A stretch of 64,000 bases of DNA from Rhodopseudomonas sp. BAL398. Its GTDB lineage: Bacteria; Pseudomonadota; Alphaproteobacteria; Rhizobiales; Xanthobacteraceae. The position numbers and the translations under genes were made by a program. Each line of letters begins with the position of its first letter. Position 1 is the stretch's first letter. A model generated the notes under the pieces. The model searched no databases. It had not been told where the DNA came from and saw only the letters and a program-made list of their open reading frames with translations. Of this stretch, positions 54,326 through 61,250 are shown one piece after another. The DNA lies in the NCBI RefSeq assembly GCF_033001325.1, contig NZ_CP133111.1, positions 1,798,001 to 1,862,000 on the forward strand, given 5' to 3'.

Positions 54326-54883
54326 ATGAAACATCCCTCCAACCGCGCATTTTTCGCCTATTGGGACGACAAGCGCTGCGGCGGCGCCGCGCCCGAGCGC
54401 AGCGAGATCGAACCCAGCGAAGTGCGCGACCTGCTCGCCGATATTTTCGTGCTGTCCTACGACGCCGACACCTACCCGTTCCGGGTGGCGGGCACCCGGG
54501 TCTGCGCCCTGCTCGGCCGCGACCTCAAGGGCCAGGGATTTGCCGCGCTGTTCGCGCCCGACAGTCGCAGCGAGGTCGCGGATATTCTGGGCATCGTCGC
54601 CGAGGACACGCTCGCGGTCATTGCCGGCATCGTCGCCAAGACGACGCGGGGAGACACCGTCAACCTGGAATTGCTGCTGCTGCCATTCAACACCCGCCCG
54701 CACACCCCGCTCAGCCTGACCGGCTTGCTGGCGCCGTTCGGCGAGCCCGGCGCCGGGACGCTCGGGGAATTCACGCTGACATCGTGGCGCACGATCGGCC
54801 AGCAACCGCGCCGCTTCACGCCGCGGGCACTGCGCAAATGGTCGGTGGTGCAAGGCCTGACGGTCTATGAGGGGCTGCGCTGA
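54326..54883 (+). CDS. PAS domain-containing protein (PAS_5 type)
   Basis: A 185-residue protein with a single PAS-like domain (about residues 25-130: IFVLSYDADTYPFRVAGTR, LLGRDLKGQGFAALF). This PAS_5 type is typical of alphaproteobacteria; ligand unknown. No output domain is fused, so it probably modulates a partner. A perfect CtrA box lies 156 bp upstream. Its 3' end overlaps the convergent Crp-type gene by 19 bp. Confidence 0.82.
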   Translation: MKHPSNRAFFAYWDDKRCGGAAPERSEIEPSEVRDLLADIFVLSYDADTYPFRVAGTRVCALLGRDLKGQGFAALFAPDSRSEVADILGIVAEDTLAVIAGIVAKTTRGDTVNLELLLLPFNTRPHTPLSLTGLLAPFGEPGAGTLGEFTLTSWRTIGQQPRRFTPRALRKWSVVQGLTVYEGLR

Positions 54884-55632
54884 GCCAACCCATCGTCGAA
54901 ACGGGAATGACGTCGCGGCTGCGGATCGTTGCAAACGAGATCGTGGCTGATGTGATCGGCCATGGAGCACTCGCATGAGCGCCGGATCAGACCGGCCAGA
55001 TCGGTGATTTCGAGATCGCCCCGGCTGTAGCGGATCACGCCTGCGCGCCGCAACGCATGCGCGACCAGCGAGATCGTATTGCGTTGCACCGCCAGCATCT
55101 GAGCCATCGCCTCCTGGGTCAGCGTCATCCGCCCGCTGCGGGACAATTCGCGCAGCTGCAATAGCCGGCGGCACAGCCGGGCCTCGACGCCATGCGAGGC
55201 ATTGCAGGCGGCGATCTGCTCGGCCTGCATGATCTGGGTAGATAGGTGCTGCATCAACGCGGCGCGCAAGGCCGGGCTGCTGTCAGCCGCCGCACGAAAA
55301 TGCCCGACATCGATCACCGACGCCCGTCCCGGATAGCGCATCATTGCCGACGTCAACGACAGCTCGCCGAACAATGCGGAGGCGCCGAACACCCCGTCGC
55401 GGCCGATCATCGCCACCTCGACAAGGTCGCCCTGGCCCACACTGATCATGCTGGAGATGACGCCCTGGTGGGGGAAATAGACCCGCTGCAACGGCCGCCC
55501 GGCCTCGATCAGCACCTGCCCGCACAGCAGATCGATCGGCCTGAGATGCCCGAGCAACAACGCGTAATCCTTCGCCGGCAGCGAATCCAGCAAGCCATTC
55601 GGTGATTGGCGGATCATCGGCATGACATCCAT
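54865..55632 (-). CDS. Crp/Fnr family transcriptional regulator
   Basis: A 255-residue regulator. An N-terminal cyclic-nucleotide-binding fold (about residues 15-150: LIEAGRPLQRVYFPHQGVIS, VAMIGRDGVFGASALF) is followed by a C-terminal winged helix (TQEAMAQMLAVQRNTISLVA). The FNR Cys cluster is absent, so it is not a classical oxygen sensor. The recognition helix VQRNTISLV differs from Crp and Fnr. Start MDVMPMIRQ at 55632 is a choice; MPMIRQ at 55623 is also possible. Paralogue of the next gene. Confidence 0.85.
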   Translation of the reverse strand: MDVMPMIRQSPNGLLDSLPAKDYALLLGHLRPIDLLCGQVLIEAGRPLQRVYFPHQGVISSMISVGQGDLVEVAMIGRDGVFGASALFGELSLTSAMMRYPGRASVIDVGHFRAAADSSPALRAALMQHLSTQIMQAEQIAACNASHGVEARLCRRLLQLRELSRSGRMTLTQEAMAQMLAVQRNTISLVAHALRRAGVIRYSRGDLEITDLAGLIRRSCECSMADHISHDLVCNDPQPRRHSRFDDGLAQRSPS

Positions 55633-55901
55633 TCCGGCCAAAATGGCGGGGCTATCGAAGATCGCGGTGGCGGCTAAGTCGTCAGAGCTGAGGCGCCGGG
55701 CGCCGAACCCACAAGACGCAAAACTCACGAGTCCGTCACGGCAAAACATCGCGCAGGTCGCGGCAACTAATCTACTTGGTATTACTACGCGGTCCTTCGC
55801 TATATTGATCAATATTGCTCATTTCATTATCAAGCCGATCGCCGTGCACCGATCCGATTGCCGCGGCGGACACAGGCGTTGAATGGCAGAGCGGCTGAAT
55901 A

Positions 55902-56633
55902 TCAGAAGCGTTGAATGCGAGAGGTGACGCCGGCTCCCAGCAGCGCGCCGTGATCCGGTTCGACGGGCTGATAACATGTGCAGGATCGCTCGGTCAGTCC
56001 GTCGACATCGAGGATCTCCAGATGGCCGCGGCTATAGCGCAACAGGCCAGCCTGCTGAAGCGCGATCGCGACCAGAGAGATGCTATTGCGCTGCACACCG
56101 AGCATCTGCGCAACGACGTCCTGGGTCAGCGGCAATTTATCGCTGCGGGCCCGCGCGCGGAACATCAGCAACTGCCGACAAAACCGGGCTTCGATGCTGT
56201 GCGCCGCATTGCACGCCGCGGTGCGCTCTGCCTGCATCAGGTATCGCCATTGGCACTGCATCAACGCCGCGCGTAGCGGTTCGCTTTGCGCGCAAATCGC
56301 CTGAAACCGCTCGACCTCGATGACCGAGGCCGTTCCGGGAAAGCGCACGATCCCCGTGGTCCGCGACAATTCGCGCTCATCGCCGGCAGCTGCCCCGAAC
56401 ACGCCTTCGCGGCCGATCATCCCCACCTCGACGGAATCGCCTTGCGCCAGACTGACAAGCTTGGAAATCACGCCGCTATGCGGAAAGTAGATCAGCCGCA
56501 GCTGCGCCCCCGCCTCCACCAGGATATCGCTGAGGACAAGGTCGACGGTACGGCAAGCCGCGCCGAGCTGCTCGAACGTGGCTTCGGGGAGCGAAGCCAG
56601 GAGGTCATTGGGTGACTGCCGAAACGAAGCCAT
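55902..56633 (-). CDS. Crp/Fnr family transcriptional regulator (paralogue of 54865)
   Basis: A 243-residue regulator of the same subfamily as the gene downstream. Shared features are LIYFPHSGVISKLVSLAQGD, MIGREGVFGAA, ACNAAHSIEARFCRQLL and the recognition helix MLGVQRNSISLVAIAL. The Cys residues are not arranged like FNR. Start MASFRQSPND at 56633 has a GGGAGAG site. It is divergent from the response regulator at 56889, so the pair and the kinase module face each other. Confidence 0.88.
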   Translation of the reverse strand: MASFRQSPNDLLASLPEATFEQLGAACRTVDLVLSDILVEAGAQLRLIYFPHSGVISKLVSLAQGDSVEVGMIGREGVFGAAAGDERELSRTTGIVRFPGTASVIEVERFQAICAQSEPLRAALMQCQWRYLMQAERTAACNAAHSIEARFCRQLLMFRARARSDKLPLTQDVVAQMLGVQRNSISLVAIALQQAGLLRYSRGHLEILDVDGLTERSCTCYQPVEPDHGALLGAGVTSRIQRF

Positions 56634-56888
56634 CTGCTCTCTCCCAACCCGCGTAACGGTGGCCGGACCCAGCAGCGGCGTCACCCGATCAAACGTGGGC
56701 GCCTAGCAGGCGCGGTCGAAGATACGATCTGACGACGCCACAACAAACATAAAACACCTACCATGACGCGCAACCTCGCCGGTATTCCCGAATTCTGGCA
56801 GACAAGTCTCGCTGATCGAGCGGAGGATCGGCAGCGGGTGGCGATTCGCGAGCCATTGAAAGGTCAGCAGCAAATCCAAGGGTGGAAT

Positions 56889-57305
56889 ATGCCGAGAATT
56901 CTTCTTGTCGACGATGATCCACTGATCAGAGGTGCGGTAAAGATCTGGCTGGAGAACAATGGTCACGAAGTGGTGACGGCGGAATGCGGCGTGACCGGAT
57001 TGAACGCCCTCCAGCGCGCCACCTTTGACCTGATGATCATCGACATCTTCATGCCGAACATGCGCGGCTTCGAATCGATCCGGGTCTTCCATCAGAACGC
57101 GCCGGCGACGCCACTGATCGCCATTTCCGGCTATGTCTTCGCCGAGAACAGGGCCCCGGCCCCCGATTTCCTGAGGATGGCCCTGGATTTGGGCGCTTCG
57201 CGCTGCCTTCGCAAACCATTCACGCCTTCCACGCTGATGACGGTGGTCGACGTCTGCCTCTCGGAACGATCGGTCCCGGCCGCCAGTAGCGCCATTGCGA
57301 GGTAG
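56889..57305 (+). CDS. Single-domain response regulator
   Basis: A 138-residue receiver domain without output domain: acidic pocket Asp8-Asp10 region (ILLVDDDPL), phosphoacceptor Asp52 in LMIIDIFMPN, Ser80 in LIAIS and Lys109 in CLRKPF. Such CheY-like proteins act by interaction or as phosphorelay intermediates. It ends 9 bp before the hybrid kinase start, so the two are almost certainly cotranscribed. The GTGGA preceding the ATG at 56889 acts as the ribosome site. Confidence 0.9.
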   Translation: MPRILLVDDDPLIRGAVKIWLENNGHEVVTAECGVTGLNALQRATFDLMIIDIFMPNMRGFESIRVFHQNAPATPLIAISGYVFAENRAPAPDFLRMALDLGASRCLRKPFTPSTLMTVVDVCLSERSVPAASSAIAR

Positions 57306-57314
57306 TGTGTTCAC

Positions 57315-59621
57315 ATGATCCAAGAGCAACCTGAAGCCAACTGGCTGCAGGCAACCCCATCGGCAACGATCGACGGGATACTGCTGATCGATTCCGATGA
57401 ATCCATCCAGCTGTTCAATCAGGCCTGCGAGAAGCTGTTCGGCTATGCCCCCGAGGAGGCGATCGGCCAGAACGTTCGGTTGCTGTTGCCAGCCTGGAGC
57501 CCCGACTGGCTGGAACGCATAGCCGACTATCCCACCTCGACCGAGCATGGGCGACGCAAGGACGGCACGATCTTCCCGATGGAACTATCGATGGGACGGA
57601 CCAGGCTCGACGGCAAGCCGGTTTTCGTCTGCGTCACCCGCGACCTGACCGAGGGCCACCGTGTCCATCAGGCGACGCGCGAAAGCGAGCGCAACTATCG
57701 GCTGCTGGTCGAAGGCGTCACCGACTATGCCATCTACATGCTCGATGTCGGCGGCCACGTCACCAGTTGGAACAGCGGCGCCAAACGCATCAAGCAATTC
57801 GGCGCCGAGGAAATTCTCGGCCAGCACTTCAGCAGATTCTATACTGAGGAGGCGCTGCAGCGCGGTGAGCCGGAAGCCAATCTCGAAATCGCCAGACGCA
57901 CCGGACATTACGAGGCGAAGGGCTGGCGGCGGCGCAAGGACGGCAGCCAGTTCTGGGCCCACGTCGTGATCGAGCCGCTGATGAACGAATACGGCGAGTT
58001 GATCGGCTTCGCCAAGGTGACCAGCGACATCAGCGAAGGCCGGCGCGTCGAACTGGCCGTCAGCGAGGCCGACGAACGGATCAACGCCCTGATCGAAACC
58101 ATGGTCGATGGCGTCATCCTGATCGACGCCGAGGGCACCATCCAGACCTTCAACCGGGCCTGCCAGACCCTGTTCGGCTACGCCAAGGAGGAAGTGATCG
58201 GCCACAACGTCAAGATGTTGATGCCAACAGAATACCGCGAAGCGCACGATGGCTATCTCGGCAATTATCATCGAACCGGGGTCCGCAAGATCATCGGTAT
58301 CGGCCGCGAGGTGAAGGGCCAGCGCAAGGACGGCTCGGTCTTTCCGATGGAGCTATCGGTGGGCGAAACCCGGCGCGACGGCGAGCCGCTGTTCGTCGGG
58401 GTGATTCACGACCTCACCGAACGCAAACGAATCGAGGCGCAACTGGTCCAGGCGCAGAAAATGGAGACCGTCGGGCAGCTCTCGGGCGGCATCGCGCACG
58501 ACTTCAACAACCTGCTGACCGTGATCGTCGGCAATGCCGAATTCCTGAGCGAACAGCTCATGGCGCGGCAGGACCTGCGCAATTTGGCCAACGATATCGG
58601 CCGGGCCGGCGAACGGGGTGCCGAATTGACGCAGCGGCTGCTGGCCTTCAGCCGCCGGCAAAACCTGATGCCGGTCGGAATCGACTGCAATGAATTGCTG
58701 GATTCGATGCACAAGCTGCTGCGGCGGACCCTGCGCGAGAACATCACGGTCAAGGCCAACTATGAGCCCGCGCTGCGCACAACCTTCGCGGATCGCGTAC
58801 AGCTGGAATCCGCGATCATCAACATTGCGCTCAATGCCCAGGACGCCATGCCGAACGGCGGCATACTCGGCATCGCCACATCCAACGTGTCGCTCGACGA
58901 TCCCTATCAGTTCCAGCACCCGGAGGTGCGGCCGGGGCAATATGTGCTGCTCGCCATTACCGACAACGGCGACGGCATGTCGCAGGAGACCCTCAACCAC
59001 GCCTTCGAGCCATTCTACACCACCAAGGACGTCGGCAAAGGCAGCGGCCTCGGGCTCAGCATGGTCTATGGATTCGTCAAGCAATCCAACGGCCACGTCG
59101 CCATCTATAGCGACCCCGGCTTCGGCACCACGATCCGGATCTATCTGCCGGCGCAGCGCGGGGACGCGGAGGCGTCGCCGGGGCAGGCCCCAATTGCCCA
59201 GAGCTACGCCTGCGGCGACGAGGTGGTGCTGGTGGTCGAGGATGATCCTTTCGTGCGGTCTTACGCGGTGATGTGCCTGCGCAGCCTCGGCTACATCGTG
59301 ATCGCTGCCACCGACGGCGTCGATGCGCTGCGAAAGCTCGGCGCCGACGTCAATATCGACGTGCTGTTCACCGACGTCGTGCTGCCGGGCAGCATCGACG
59401 GCTTTGAGCTTGCCAATCTGGCGCGCAGCCAACGCCCGGATTTGCGTGTGCTGCTGACCTCCGGCTATGCCCATGATAGCACCGCCACCAGCTTGCGGAC
59501 CGACGATGCGGTGCTGCTCAATAAGCCCTACCGCAAAGAGGATCTCGCCCAGCGGATGCGTGATATCGTCGATAGCGGCAGAGCACCGCAACCGGTCGGG
59601 CCAGCGCTAACCGGCCGTTAA
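57315..59621 (+). CDS. Hybrid histidine kinase with three PAS domains (FixL-like heme PAS)
   Basis: A 768-residue cytoplasmic sensor: PAS1 (about residues 15-110), PAS2 (about 125-240), PAS3 (about 258-370), a HisKA domain with His395 in GGIAHDFNN, HATPase with Asn507 and DNGDGM, and a C-terminal receiver with Asp687 and Lys737. PAS3 closely resembles the FixL heme domain. His311 in EAHDGYLG matches the proximal heme ligand and Arg331 in GIGREV the distal Arg, with the same 20-residue spacing. PAS1 lacks the His. No Hpt domain or gene is nearby. Confidence 0.9.
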
Positions 59622-59676
59622 CTGTACGCGCCGTAGGGTGAGGGTGACTACGGGCCCGGCCGACCGGCGGATATTG

Positions 59677-60288
59677 ATGGCGTTACACAATCTTTCAGTT
59701 CAGCCGACCGCGGTGGAGCGACGACGCTTCCAGCGGGTGAAGGTTCATCTGCTCGGGCGCTATATGCTGCCCGACCGCCGTGAGTTTCCCTGCCAGATCA
59801 TCAACATGTCGCCCGGCGGCCTGGCTATGCTGGCGCCCGGGATCGGCAATGTCGGCGACCGGGTGATCGCCTATCTCGACCATATCGGCAGGGTCGAAGG
59901 CAAGATTACCAGGATCATCGACAACGGCTTTGCGATGAATCTCGGCGCCACGCCGCGCAAGCGCGACAAGCTCGCCGCTCAGCTGACCTGGCTTGCCAAT
60001 CGCGACATTCTCAACCTGCCGGAAGACCGCCGTCACGATCGAATCGTGCCGCGCAATCCGATCTGCGTGCTCACGCTGGAAGACGGCAGCACGATGAGTT
60101 GCCGGATCATCGATTTGTCGCTGTCGGGCGCGGCGATCGCCGCCGAGCGCCGGCCGCCGCTGCAGTCGCAGGTGGCGCTCGGCCGGGTGCAGGCCCGCGT
60201 GGTCCGAAATCTCGAAGACGGCTTCGCGCTGGAGTTCGTGCACGAGCAGCTCGCCGAGACACTCGAAGACAGCGTTACCGCCCGGTAA
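59677..60288 (+). CDS. Double PilZ domain protein
   Basis: A 203-residue protein made of two PilZ domains, the usual c-di-GMP receptors. The first has RRRFQRVKVHL with NMSPGG, the second RRHDRIVPRN with DLSLSG, so both keep an RxxxR and a [D/N]xSxxG motif. ATG at 59677 (MALHNLSVQ) has GGCGGA 6 nt upstream. It follows the hybrid kinase by 55 bp on the same strand and is probably part of the same signalling operon. Confidence 0.85.
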   Translation: MALHNLSVQPTAVERRRFQRVKVHLLGRYMLPDRREFPCQIINMSPGGLAMLAPGIGNVGDRVIAYLDHIGRVEGKITRIIDNGFAMNLGATPRKRDKLAAQLTWLANRDILNLPEDRRHDRIVPRNPICVLTLEDGSTMSCRIIDLSLSGAAIAAERRPPLQSQVALGRVQARVVRNLEDGFALEFVHEQLAETLEDSVTAR

Positions 60289-60449
60289 AGCGTTTTCTCC
60301 TGCCATCAGCCGATTTCCGACCGATCAGCACGCCTCCCCCCGCGCGCGACGCCGCGTCGTCGCCCCGCGCCGCGCACCGTTCGCGGTTAACGCGCCCGGC
60401 ATTCGCGGCAAAACTGCGCGTCCCGCAGGCCTTGCGGCGTTAACGCATC

Positions 60450-60512
60450 AAATTTGAATCAATTGCCGATCATTCAAATTTTAGACGAATTCGATTCAAT
60501 CAAGATTCAAAT
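60450..60512. promoter_or_regulatory. AT-rich dyad region upstream of the BTLCP gene
   Basis: A perfect 10-bp inverted repeat AAATTTGAAT / ATTCAAATTT (60450-60459 and 60472-60481, 12-nt spacer) is followed by ATTCAAT (60494-60500) and another ATTCAAAT (60505-60512). The region is far more AT-rich than its surroundings. It probably contains promoter and regulator sites for the gene at 60618. The rest of 60289-60617 has no gene. Confidence 0.5.
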
Positions 60513-60617
60513 CGCGCGGCGTTTTTACTTGTATTTGCTTCAATTGTACTTGTGCCACTTAGCGGCCGCGAAAATTCCCTGTGCAAAACATGGTCCCAAC
60601 AAGAAGCGGGGACCACA

Positions 60618-61250
60618 ATGTTTGGTAGCAGGGGATTTGTTAGCAGCGGCTCGGGGTTCGCAGTTGCCGTTGCAATGCTGACGATGGCGGCGACGGCCCA
60701 GGCCGGCCAGCCGGCACGCTACGCCAGCGTCGGCGAGAATACACGGGCGCCGATCGGCTGGATCGAACTCTGCGCCGAGACGCCTGGCGAATGCCGCGGT
60801 GGCGACACTCAGCCGCGCGACATTGTTTTAACGCAGACCGCATGGACCGATCTGCTACGGATCAACCGCTGGGTCAACGACCACATCAAGCCGATGACCG
60901 ACATGGATCATTGGGGCGTGGTCGAAAAATGGTCGCTGCCGACCGACGGCTACGGCGATTGCGAAGACTACGTGTTGTTGAAACGCAAGATGCTGATCGA
61001 CTCCGGTTGGCCGCGCGAGGCGTTGCTGATCACCGTGGTCCGCGACAAGCAAAATGACGGCCACGCCGTCCTGACGGTGAAGACCGACAAGGGCGAATTC
61101 ATTCTCGACAATCAGAACGAGGAAGTCGTGGCCTGGACCGAAACCGGCTACCGCTTCGTCAAGCGCCAGTCGCAGAGCAATCCGAATATCTGGGTCGCCT
61201 TGGGCGACGCCAAACCGTCGATGGCCACGGCCACCGCACAACGACGCTAA
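60618..61250 (+). CDS. Transglutaminase-like cysteine protease (BTLCP family)
   Basis: A 210-residue protein with a signal peptide (hydrophobic GFAVAVAMLTMAATAQA) and a papain-like BTLCP domain. The triad is visible: Cys115 in GYGDCEDYVLL, His149 in NDGHAVLTV and Asp164 in FILDNQ. LapG-type relatives cleave surface adhesins under c-di-GMP control; whether this one does is unknown, although a PilZ gene lies just upstream. The ATG at 60618 has GGGGA 5 nt upstream. A rho-independent terminator follows. Confidence 0.9.
   Translation: MFGSRGFVSSGSGFAVAVAMLTMAATAQAGQPARYASVGENTRAPIGWIELCAETPGECRGGDTQPRDIVLTQTAWTDLLRINRWVNDHIKPMTDMDHWGVVEKWSLPTDGYGDCEDYVLLKRKMLIDSGWPREALLITVVRDKQNDGHAVLTVKTDKGEFILDNQNEEVVAWTETGYRFVKRQSQSNPNIWVALGDAKPSMATATAQRR

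Follow-up and report, generated by a model that had tools for sequence, protein, structure and literature searches.

The closest described relatives of the kinase considered here are heme-based sensors of the FixL type. FixL of B. japonicum and S. meliloti is a non-hybrid kinase that is paired with FixJ. Binding of O2 to the heme leaves FixL inactive (PMC13327599). The hybrid form hFixL, from Rhizobium, Sinorhizobium and Agrobacterium, belongs to the hFixL-FxkR-FixK system, carries a C-terminal receiver behind its heme PAS and HisKA-HATPase, and is described as an O2 sensor active at low O2 in PMC7888657. The heme PAS fold is also shared by E. coli DosP, which has a phosphodiesterase output. 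At the level of titles and the start of abstracts, the open-licence literature yielded no published work on the kinase branch described below or on such FixL-like hybrids, and none was found there on its pocket residues.

The window, i.e. the whole stretch of 64,000 nucleotides that was analysed (C1:1798001-1862000), comes from a host genome (G000) of 6.2 Mb in four contigs. Its 57315-59621 kinase is, with a probability of about 0.7, a soluble heme-PAS O2-sensor hybrid kinase that forms a separate family branch beside genuine FixLJ and relays to its own and/or an adjacent receiver. PAS3 of this protein would bind heme b through His311. With O2 bound to the ferrous heme and stabilised by Arg331, the adjacent HisKA/HATPase kinase would be off, and loss of O2 would switch it on; release of O2 from PAS3 is the likely on-signal, since O2 shuts FixL down and hFixL is active when O2 is low.

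Domain layout and heme pocket

Three PAS domains precede the kinase domains, and a receiver domain closes the protein (window positions, followed by residues of the product):

57315..59621, + strand: hybrid sensor histidine kinase of 768 aa, PAS1-PAS2-PAS3-HisKA-HATPase-REC by Pfam, open reading frame intact
57354..57653, + strand: PAS1, residues 14-113, a heme-type PAS relative without the heme motif, fast evolving
57687..58034, + strand: PAS2, residues 125-240, another PAS type without the heme motif, retained in three-PAS orthologues
58068..58424, + strand: PAS3, residues 252-370, a FixL-type heme PAS whose top fold matches are FixL
58245..58247, + strand: codon of His311, by homology the putative proximal ligand of the heme; the model puts it on the F helix
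58263..58265, + strand: codon of Asn317, where BjFixL and RmFixL have Arg
58287..58289, + strand: codon of Lys325, where BjFixL has His and RmFixL has Arg
58305..58307, + strand: codon of Arg331, aligned to the FixL pocket Arg
58473..58664, + strand: HisKA (Pfam), residues 387-450, in which the His of HDFNN is assumed to be the phosphorylated residue
58791..59156, + strand: HATPase_c (Pfam), residues 493-614, catalytic boxes seen by eye
59226..59558, + strand: C-terminal receiver domain (Pfam Response_reg), residues 638-748

The kinase and receiver domains of the 768-aa protein exceed the Pfam cut-offs, and inspection by eye shows the catalytic motifs in both. No membrane helix was found in the protein (highest 19-residue Kyte-Doolittle mean 1.44), and the kinase is best read as soluble and cytoplasmic.

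The alignment of PAS3 to RmFixL and BjFixL is gap-free across the pocket, at 52% and 44% identity, respectively. Residues 311, 317, 325, and 331 of the kinase are His, Asn, Lys, and Arg, and the corresponding BjFixL residues are taken here to be His200, Arg206, His214, and Arg220. Against the BjFixL pocket stretch HDSYISRYRTTSDPHIIGIGR, His311 falls on the FixL His and Arg331 on the Arg of both BjFixL and RmFixL. The pocket Arg lies 20 residues beyond His311 and is accompanied by the IIG stretch (KIIGIGR), which bears out the claim of the sequence-only reading that PAS3 keeps these two residues at FixL spacing. The proximal-side residue of a FixL-type heme PAS may be Arg or His; the window kinase has Asn317 at this position, that of Arg206 in BjFixL. 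This does not disqualify the domain, since Asn is also found in one of five hFixL-type proteins (see below).

Comparison with the RmFixL structure 1D06 by phmmer gives E = 1.5e-34. An AlphaFold2 model of residues 244-384, built on an alignment with 12 homologues, has a mean pLDDT of 89.0 and places His311 in the F helix (model residues 62-78, i.e. 305-321). Among the less reliable regions of this heme-free model are the last part of the F helix and the loop behind it (block means 77 and 75). The first 20 Foldseek matches of the PAS3 model in the PDB are all FixL; the heme PAS of DosP comes next, at 27-32% identity in the fold alignments. PAS3 thus resembles FixL in the sequence of the heme PAS, in its fold, and in the spacing of His and pocket Arg. 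Its assignment as a FixL-type heme PAS is well supported by sequence, and heme binding is predicted from homology and the model.

A search of the genome with PAS3 returned 18 PAS matches. The pocket could not be read from all of them, as the rows L196 and L211 fall again on a PAS next to the one sought, and L203, L205, L208, and L210 stop short of the pocket; all 18 stretches were therefore scanned for the motif. The alignment to the FixL pocket omitted rows that start beyond query residue 290. In the six-frame DNA scan around the 18 matches, the full FixL-type motif occurs at two sites only, PAS3 (scan rows L194 and L196, which are the same domain of the 57315-59621 kinase) and the genuine FixL. 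The His...Arg pair at FixL spacing is not unique to these sites and is also present in L198 and L016, where the remaining motif is missing.

PAS1 and PAS3 share 49% identity, and the motif with the His is missing from PAS1, in agreement with its earlier description as a similar domain without the His. A PAS tree computed without the motif columns places it within a large heme-type group (support 95/96), so PAS1 is most simply a copy that lost the motif; with 90 columns and a long branch for L015_pas1of2, this tree is weak on deep forks.

The kinase beside FixL and hFixL

The host genome encodes a FixLJ pair of its own. The genuine FixL scores 881.7 bits (cut-off 850) and FixJ scores 337 bits (cut-off 255); the two are clustered in their own locus, where they stand together with a lone receiver and a Crp/Fnr protein at C1:3114928-3118437. 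FixJ (C1:3116453-3117055) adjoins this FixL and not the window kinase; the FixL and FixJ genes at C1:3114928-3117067 leave the kinase outside fixLJ, as had been proposed. The Crp/Fnr protein of the fixLJ locus is likely FixK; its identity is not settled, because its score of 231.5 is below the cut-off of 300 of the Caulobacter FixK model. Since the genome also has ccoN and nifH, both above their cut-offs, O2 control is physiologically sensible. Two nifH-related proteins (G000:C1:2743316-2744101 and 2769818-2770585; 232 and 201 bits) fall below the nifH cut-off. They are perhaps BchL and BchX, which would hint at photosynthesis genes.

A displaced FixL was rejected as identity of the window kinase, which reaches 282.4 bits against the FixL equivalog NF041777 (cut-off 850), has no FixJ alongside, and belongs to another clade. 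The kinase also differs from FixL in its hybrid build, in Asn317 for Arg, and in Lys325 for His or Arg.

By tblastn against plasmids, hybrid kinases were found that are about 49% identical over PAS3, kinase, and receiver. Five rhizobial hybrids among the relatives examined (49-51% identity to the window kinase over 503-510 residues) are assigned here to the hFixL type from their gene neighbours, their database records being without that name. A Crp-family gene (by Pfam) is near all five, ccoNOQP near three, and an OmpR-type regulator near two, and such neighbourhoods fit hFixL as described in PMC7888657 and PMC4999443. The five proteins keep the His, have Arg at both the 325 and 331 positions, and have His, Arg, or Asn at the 317 position.

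In the kinase-receiver tree, the window kinase lies in an 18-row clade of its own bacterial family (support 100/99). The five hFixL-type proteins and two further rows form a clade apart from it (support 100/100), and hFixL identity was rejected on these separate, supported clades. The window kinase shares with hFixL the heme PAS followed by HisKA-HATPase and a C-terminal receiver, and in both a Crp-family gene is close by. In contrast to hFixL, PAS1 and PAS2 precede the heme PAS, the neighbour is a lone receiver instead of an OmpR-type regulator, and ccoNOQP is not alongside; neither an FxkR (OmpR-type) partner nor a fixK neighbour was found at the window locus. The earlier statement that the kinase is hybrid and in this unlike FixL is correct as to the architecture, but the architecture does not set it apart, as the hybrid hFixL is already a known O2 sensor. 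Judged by sequence and analogy, the window kinase should work like hFixL and FixL while being a member of neither.

Relatives of the kinase were collected from 391 genomes drawn from a larger group (E ≤ 1e-140, best two candidates scored per genome), which gave at least 63 matches in 53 of the genomes; 63 is a lower bound because of this scoring and sampling. Among the 63 matches listed, 17 (window included) have at least one FixL-type motif, and in each of these the PAS that precedes the kinase domains carries it; nine of the 17 have two motifs and one has three. A raw count of His plus Arg had given 18 of 63, from which L099 was removed because its gap-free reading gives Val at the His column and His one residue later.

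The counts bear on the two pocket residues that had been singled out as unusual. At the Asn317 position, the 17 motif-bearing members have Asn (12), Arg (2), Ser (2), or His (1), and at the Lys325 position Lys (14) or Arg (3), so Asn/Lys is the usual pair of motif-bearing relatives and not a peculiarity of the window. The Lys at the distal-His position is real in comparison with BjFixL. It had looked more unusual than it is because BjFixL alone was used, and an altered distal pocket was rejected as its meaning: RmFixL and the five hFixL-type proteins have Arg here, and His occurs in none of the 17. Asn317 is a genuine difference from FixL, both FixL proteins having Arg, and may matter; it is no oddity, being the commonest state among the motif-bearing relatives. 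It is the part of the altered-sensor idea that keeps its weight. The Arg206 of BjFixL is presumably the proximal arginine of structure 2CMN.

This residue is the starting point of an alternative that appears unlikely, in which heme is bound but the ligand is NO, CO, or the heme redox state, with Asn317 weakening O2 switching. The title of PDB entry 2CMN ('A Proximal Arginine Residue in the Switching Mechanism of the FixL Oxygen Sensor') lends weight to the position, FixLJ already covers O2 in this genome, and FixL itself binds NO and CO going by the PDB titles of 1DP8, 1LSV, and 1XJ4. Arg331 and the IIG stretch are retained, however, the Asn/Lys pair is the usual one and its Asn recurs in an hFixL-type protein, and no NO-related domain was found among the nine locus proteins scanned. 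O2, NO, and CO are not separable by sequence; by analogy with FixL and hFixL, O2 is most likely the ligand of PAS3.

Some relatives are built differently. FixL-type heme motifs are present in different PAS domains of the same hybrid kinase in L101 (three motifs) and in L104-L112 (two). In 40 of the 63 matches listed (L115-L119, L121-L145, and L147-L156, mostly g24), a CGxTH motif before the kinase suggests an ethylene-receptor-like N-terminus; in L116, on which Pfam was run, this N-terminus matches ETR1_N (E = 5e-39). The ethylene-receptor-like hybrids resemble the window kinase in clade and at 53-60% identity, but they differ from it in the ETR1_N membrane domain (L116) and in the heme motif, which is absent from 38 of the 40 and kept in L115 and L116. 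The tandem-heme and ethylene-receptor-fused relatives suggest that one heme-PAS kinase core was rebuilt repeatedly.

Loss of the heme motif at a conserved locus

G001, G046, and the five g28 genomes that gave a match (G140, G214, G237, G206, and G107) share with the window the gene order CBS, rhomboid, PAS_5, Crp/Fnr, (receiver), kinase, PilZ, BTLCP, MarR, porin, within the limits of the stretches compared and with a few members absent from some genomes. The downstream genes for PilZ and a BTLCP/LapG-like cysteine protease (59638-61250) are 73-93% identical in the syntenic genomes and are better kept than the kinase. The receiver gene is present in G046, and none was seen in the g28 syntenic stretches.

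The syntenic kinase of G001, which is of the same genus, retains the motif. In G046 and the five g28 genomes, which represent two other genera, the His at the 311 position and the IIG stretch are gone, while the Arg is kept, as are the kinase and receiver domains; G140 has a His one residue later. In the tree, the kinases of the window and G001 group with those of g28 to the exclusion of G046 (support 97/88), which implies at least two heme losses, or one loss and one regain. Since these syntenic orthologues lost the His, heme sensing seems dispensable for the locus in some hosts. FixL-type heme sensing and the hybrid hFixL are known, and the more interesting part of the present case is the apparently repeated loss of heme in place, which offers the heme-less orthologues as natural controls for the contribution of heme to such a kinase.

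The losses raise the question of whether the pocket is a relic in the window as well, so that PAS3 would bind little or no heme and would relay signals within the dimer, as it presumably does in the heme-less orthologues. The motif is absent from 46 of the 63 relatives listed, and the heme label needs seven changes over the kinase-receiver tree, at least four of which are forced by well supported branches; both fit a relic. The checkable pocket landmarks of PAS3 are intact, however, and many His-less relatives also have a shortened stretch (L117, L099, and L100 keep its length). PAS3 furthermore has the lowest dN of the domains compared between G000 and G001 (103/119 residues identical, dN 0.069, dS 0.380), followed by the kinase core (199/241, 0.104, 0.549), PAS2 (92/116, 0.109, 0.505), PAS1 (64/100, 0.220, 0.449), and the receiver domain of the kinase (82/121, 0.245, 0.677). 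Once synonymous change is corrected for, the constraint on PAS3 equals that on the kinase core and is no stronger (dN/dS 0.18 and 0.19, both well below the 0.49 of PAS1). Constraint on a par with that on the kinase itself counts against a relic and leaves it very unlikely.

The adjacent receiver and Crp/Fnr genes

Three regulatory genes lie upstream of the kinase:

56889..57305, + strand: stand-alone receiver, 138 aa from the ATG common to its relatives (open reading frame from 56763), ending 9 bases short of the kinase
55902..56684, - strand: CrpB, a Crp/Fnr-family regulator divergent from the receiver gene
54865..55812, - strand: CrpA, a second, tandem Crp/Fnr-family regulator

In the favored O2-sensor reading, phosphate would pass from the kinase to its own receiver and/or to this stand-alone receiver, and from the receiver to an output that possibly involves the divergent Crp/Fnr-family regulator. 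The single receiver had been named as the likely partner of the kinase. Its gene is indeed next to the kinase, and the partnership is plausible: it adjoins the kinase in G001, G046, G253, and G188, in the latter two without the other flanking genes. Among the motif-bearing kinases, it adjoins 4 of 17 (window, G001, G253, and G188), whose gene neighbourhoods are of at least two different kinds. The other 13 have no adjacent receiver in the stretches read, which contain two weak receiver matches (42% and 28%).

The receiver could act as a FixT-like inhibitor of the kinase instead of accepting phosphate. FixT, itself a single receiver, blocks the autophosphorylation of FixL, and the 4-Cys motif is reportedly absent outside Caulobacter (PMC7078487), so its absence from the window receiver is not decisive. 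A lone receiver also lies 3′ of fixJ in the same genome, which would suit such a role. But the window receiver differs from that protein by extra residues after ISGY, and its acceptor residues are present by eye, which makes inhibition quite unlikely. A second copy of the lone receiver, 57% identical, is found at G000:C1:174397-174780.

The receiver might also belong mainly with the divergent Crp/Fnr regulator, so that kinase and receiver would be neighbours without direct signalling. The receiver family occurs in at least 108 of the 391 genomes (E ≤ 1e-35, 10 candidates scored per genome) and is thus more widespread than the kinase with its 53 genomes, at unlike thresholds. Among 20 other receiver places, picked by hand mostly from the better matches and including second copies from G000 and G001, 10 have a CrpB homologue nearby and six a kinase homologue, one place counting in both groups; several of these stretches are cut off by the end of a contig, and the matches to Crp in L250 and to the kinase in L255 are partial. 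When the five kinase-adjacent places are added, however, the kinase (11 of 25) and CrpB (13 of 25) are about equal as neighbours, and the 9-base spacing and the recurrence of the pair in four other genomes, two of them without other flanking genes, likewise speak for a link. A receiver tied mainly to Crp/Fnr is accordingly rather unlikely. L181 and L013 in the receiver alignment are not orthologues of the receiver. L253 and L255 each show two tandem receiver copies beside a Crp/Fnr gene.

Because the window has both the kinase and CrpB beside the receiver, output through Crp/Fnr is a reasonable guess. No FixK model is among the NCBIfam matches of CrpA and CrpB. The tandem pair (54865-56684) is 66% and 73% identical to its G001 counterparts, whereas the g28 loci and G046 show one such gene.

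If the O2-sensor reading is true, an organism with nifH, a cbb3 oxidase, and FixLJ has a further O2 kinase of the FixL type whose output is a different one, and O2 regulation in this family would therefore not be a matter of FixLJ alone. A broader proposal can be put forward tentatively, as a possibility that is less likely than not: the kinases would form a third lineage of FixL-like O2-sensing hybrids, belonging to this bacterial family and distinct from FixLJ and hFixL-FxkR, that signals via a single receiver and a non-FixK Crp/Fnr protein and has lost its heme sensor several times in the same chromosomal place. Such a lineage would supply a natural series in which to follow the change from a heme-sensing to a heme-independent kinase.

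The regions upstream of the receiver and the kinase contain no FixK-like box, the one nearby site with one mismatch (57000) being inside the receiver gene, and the intergenic alignment between Crp and receiver (three genomes) shows no clear palindrome by eye or by pattern script. The search for an FxkR-type box gave one two-mismatch site, at 59682 downstream of the kinase; at least one such site appears in 33 of 100 shuffles, so that a single site is compatible with chance. In the window as a whole, TTGA-N6-TCAA with up to one mismatch occurs at 21 sites against 10.5 expected, a number reached in 1 of 100 shuffles.
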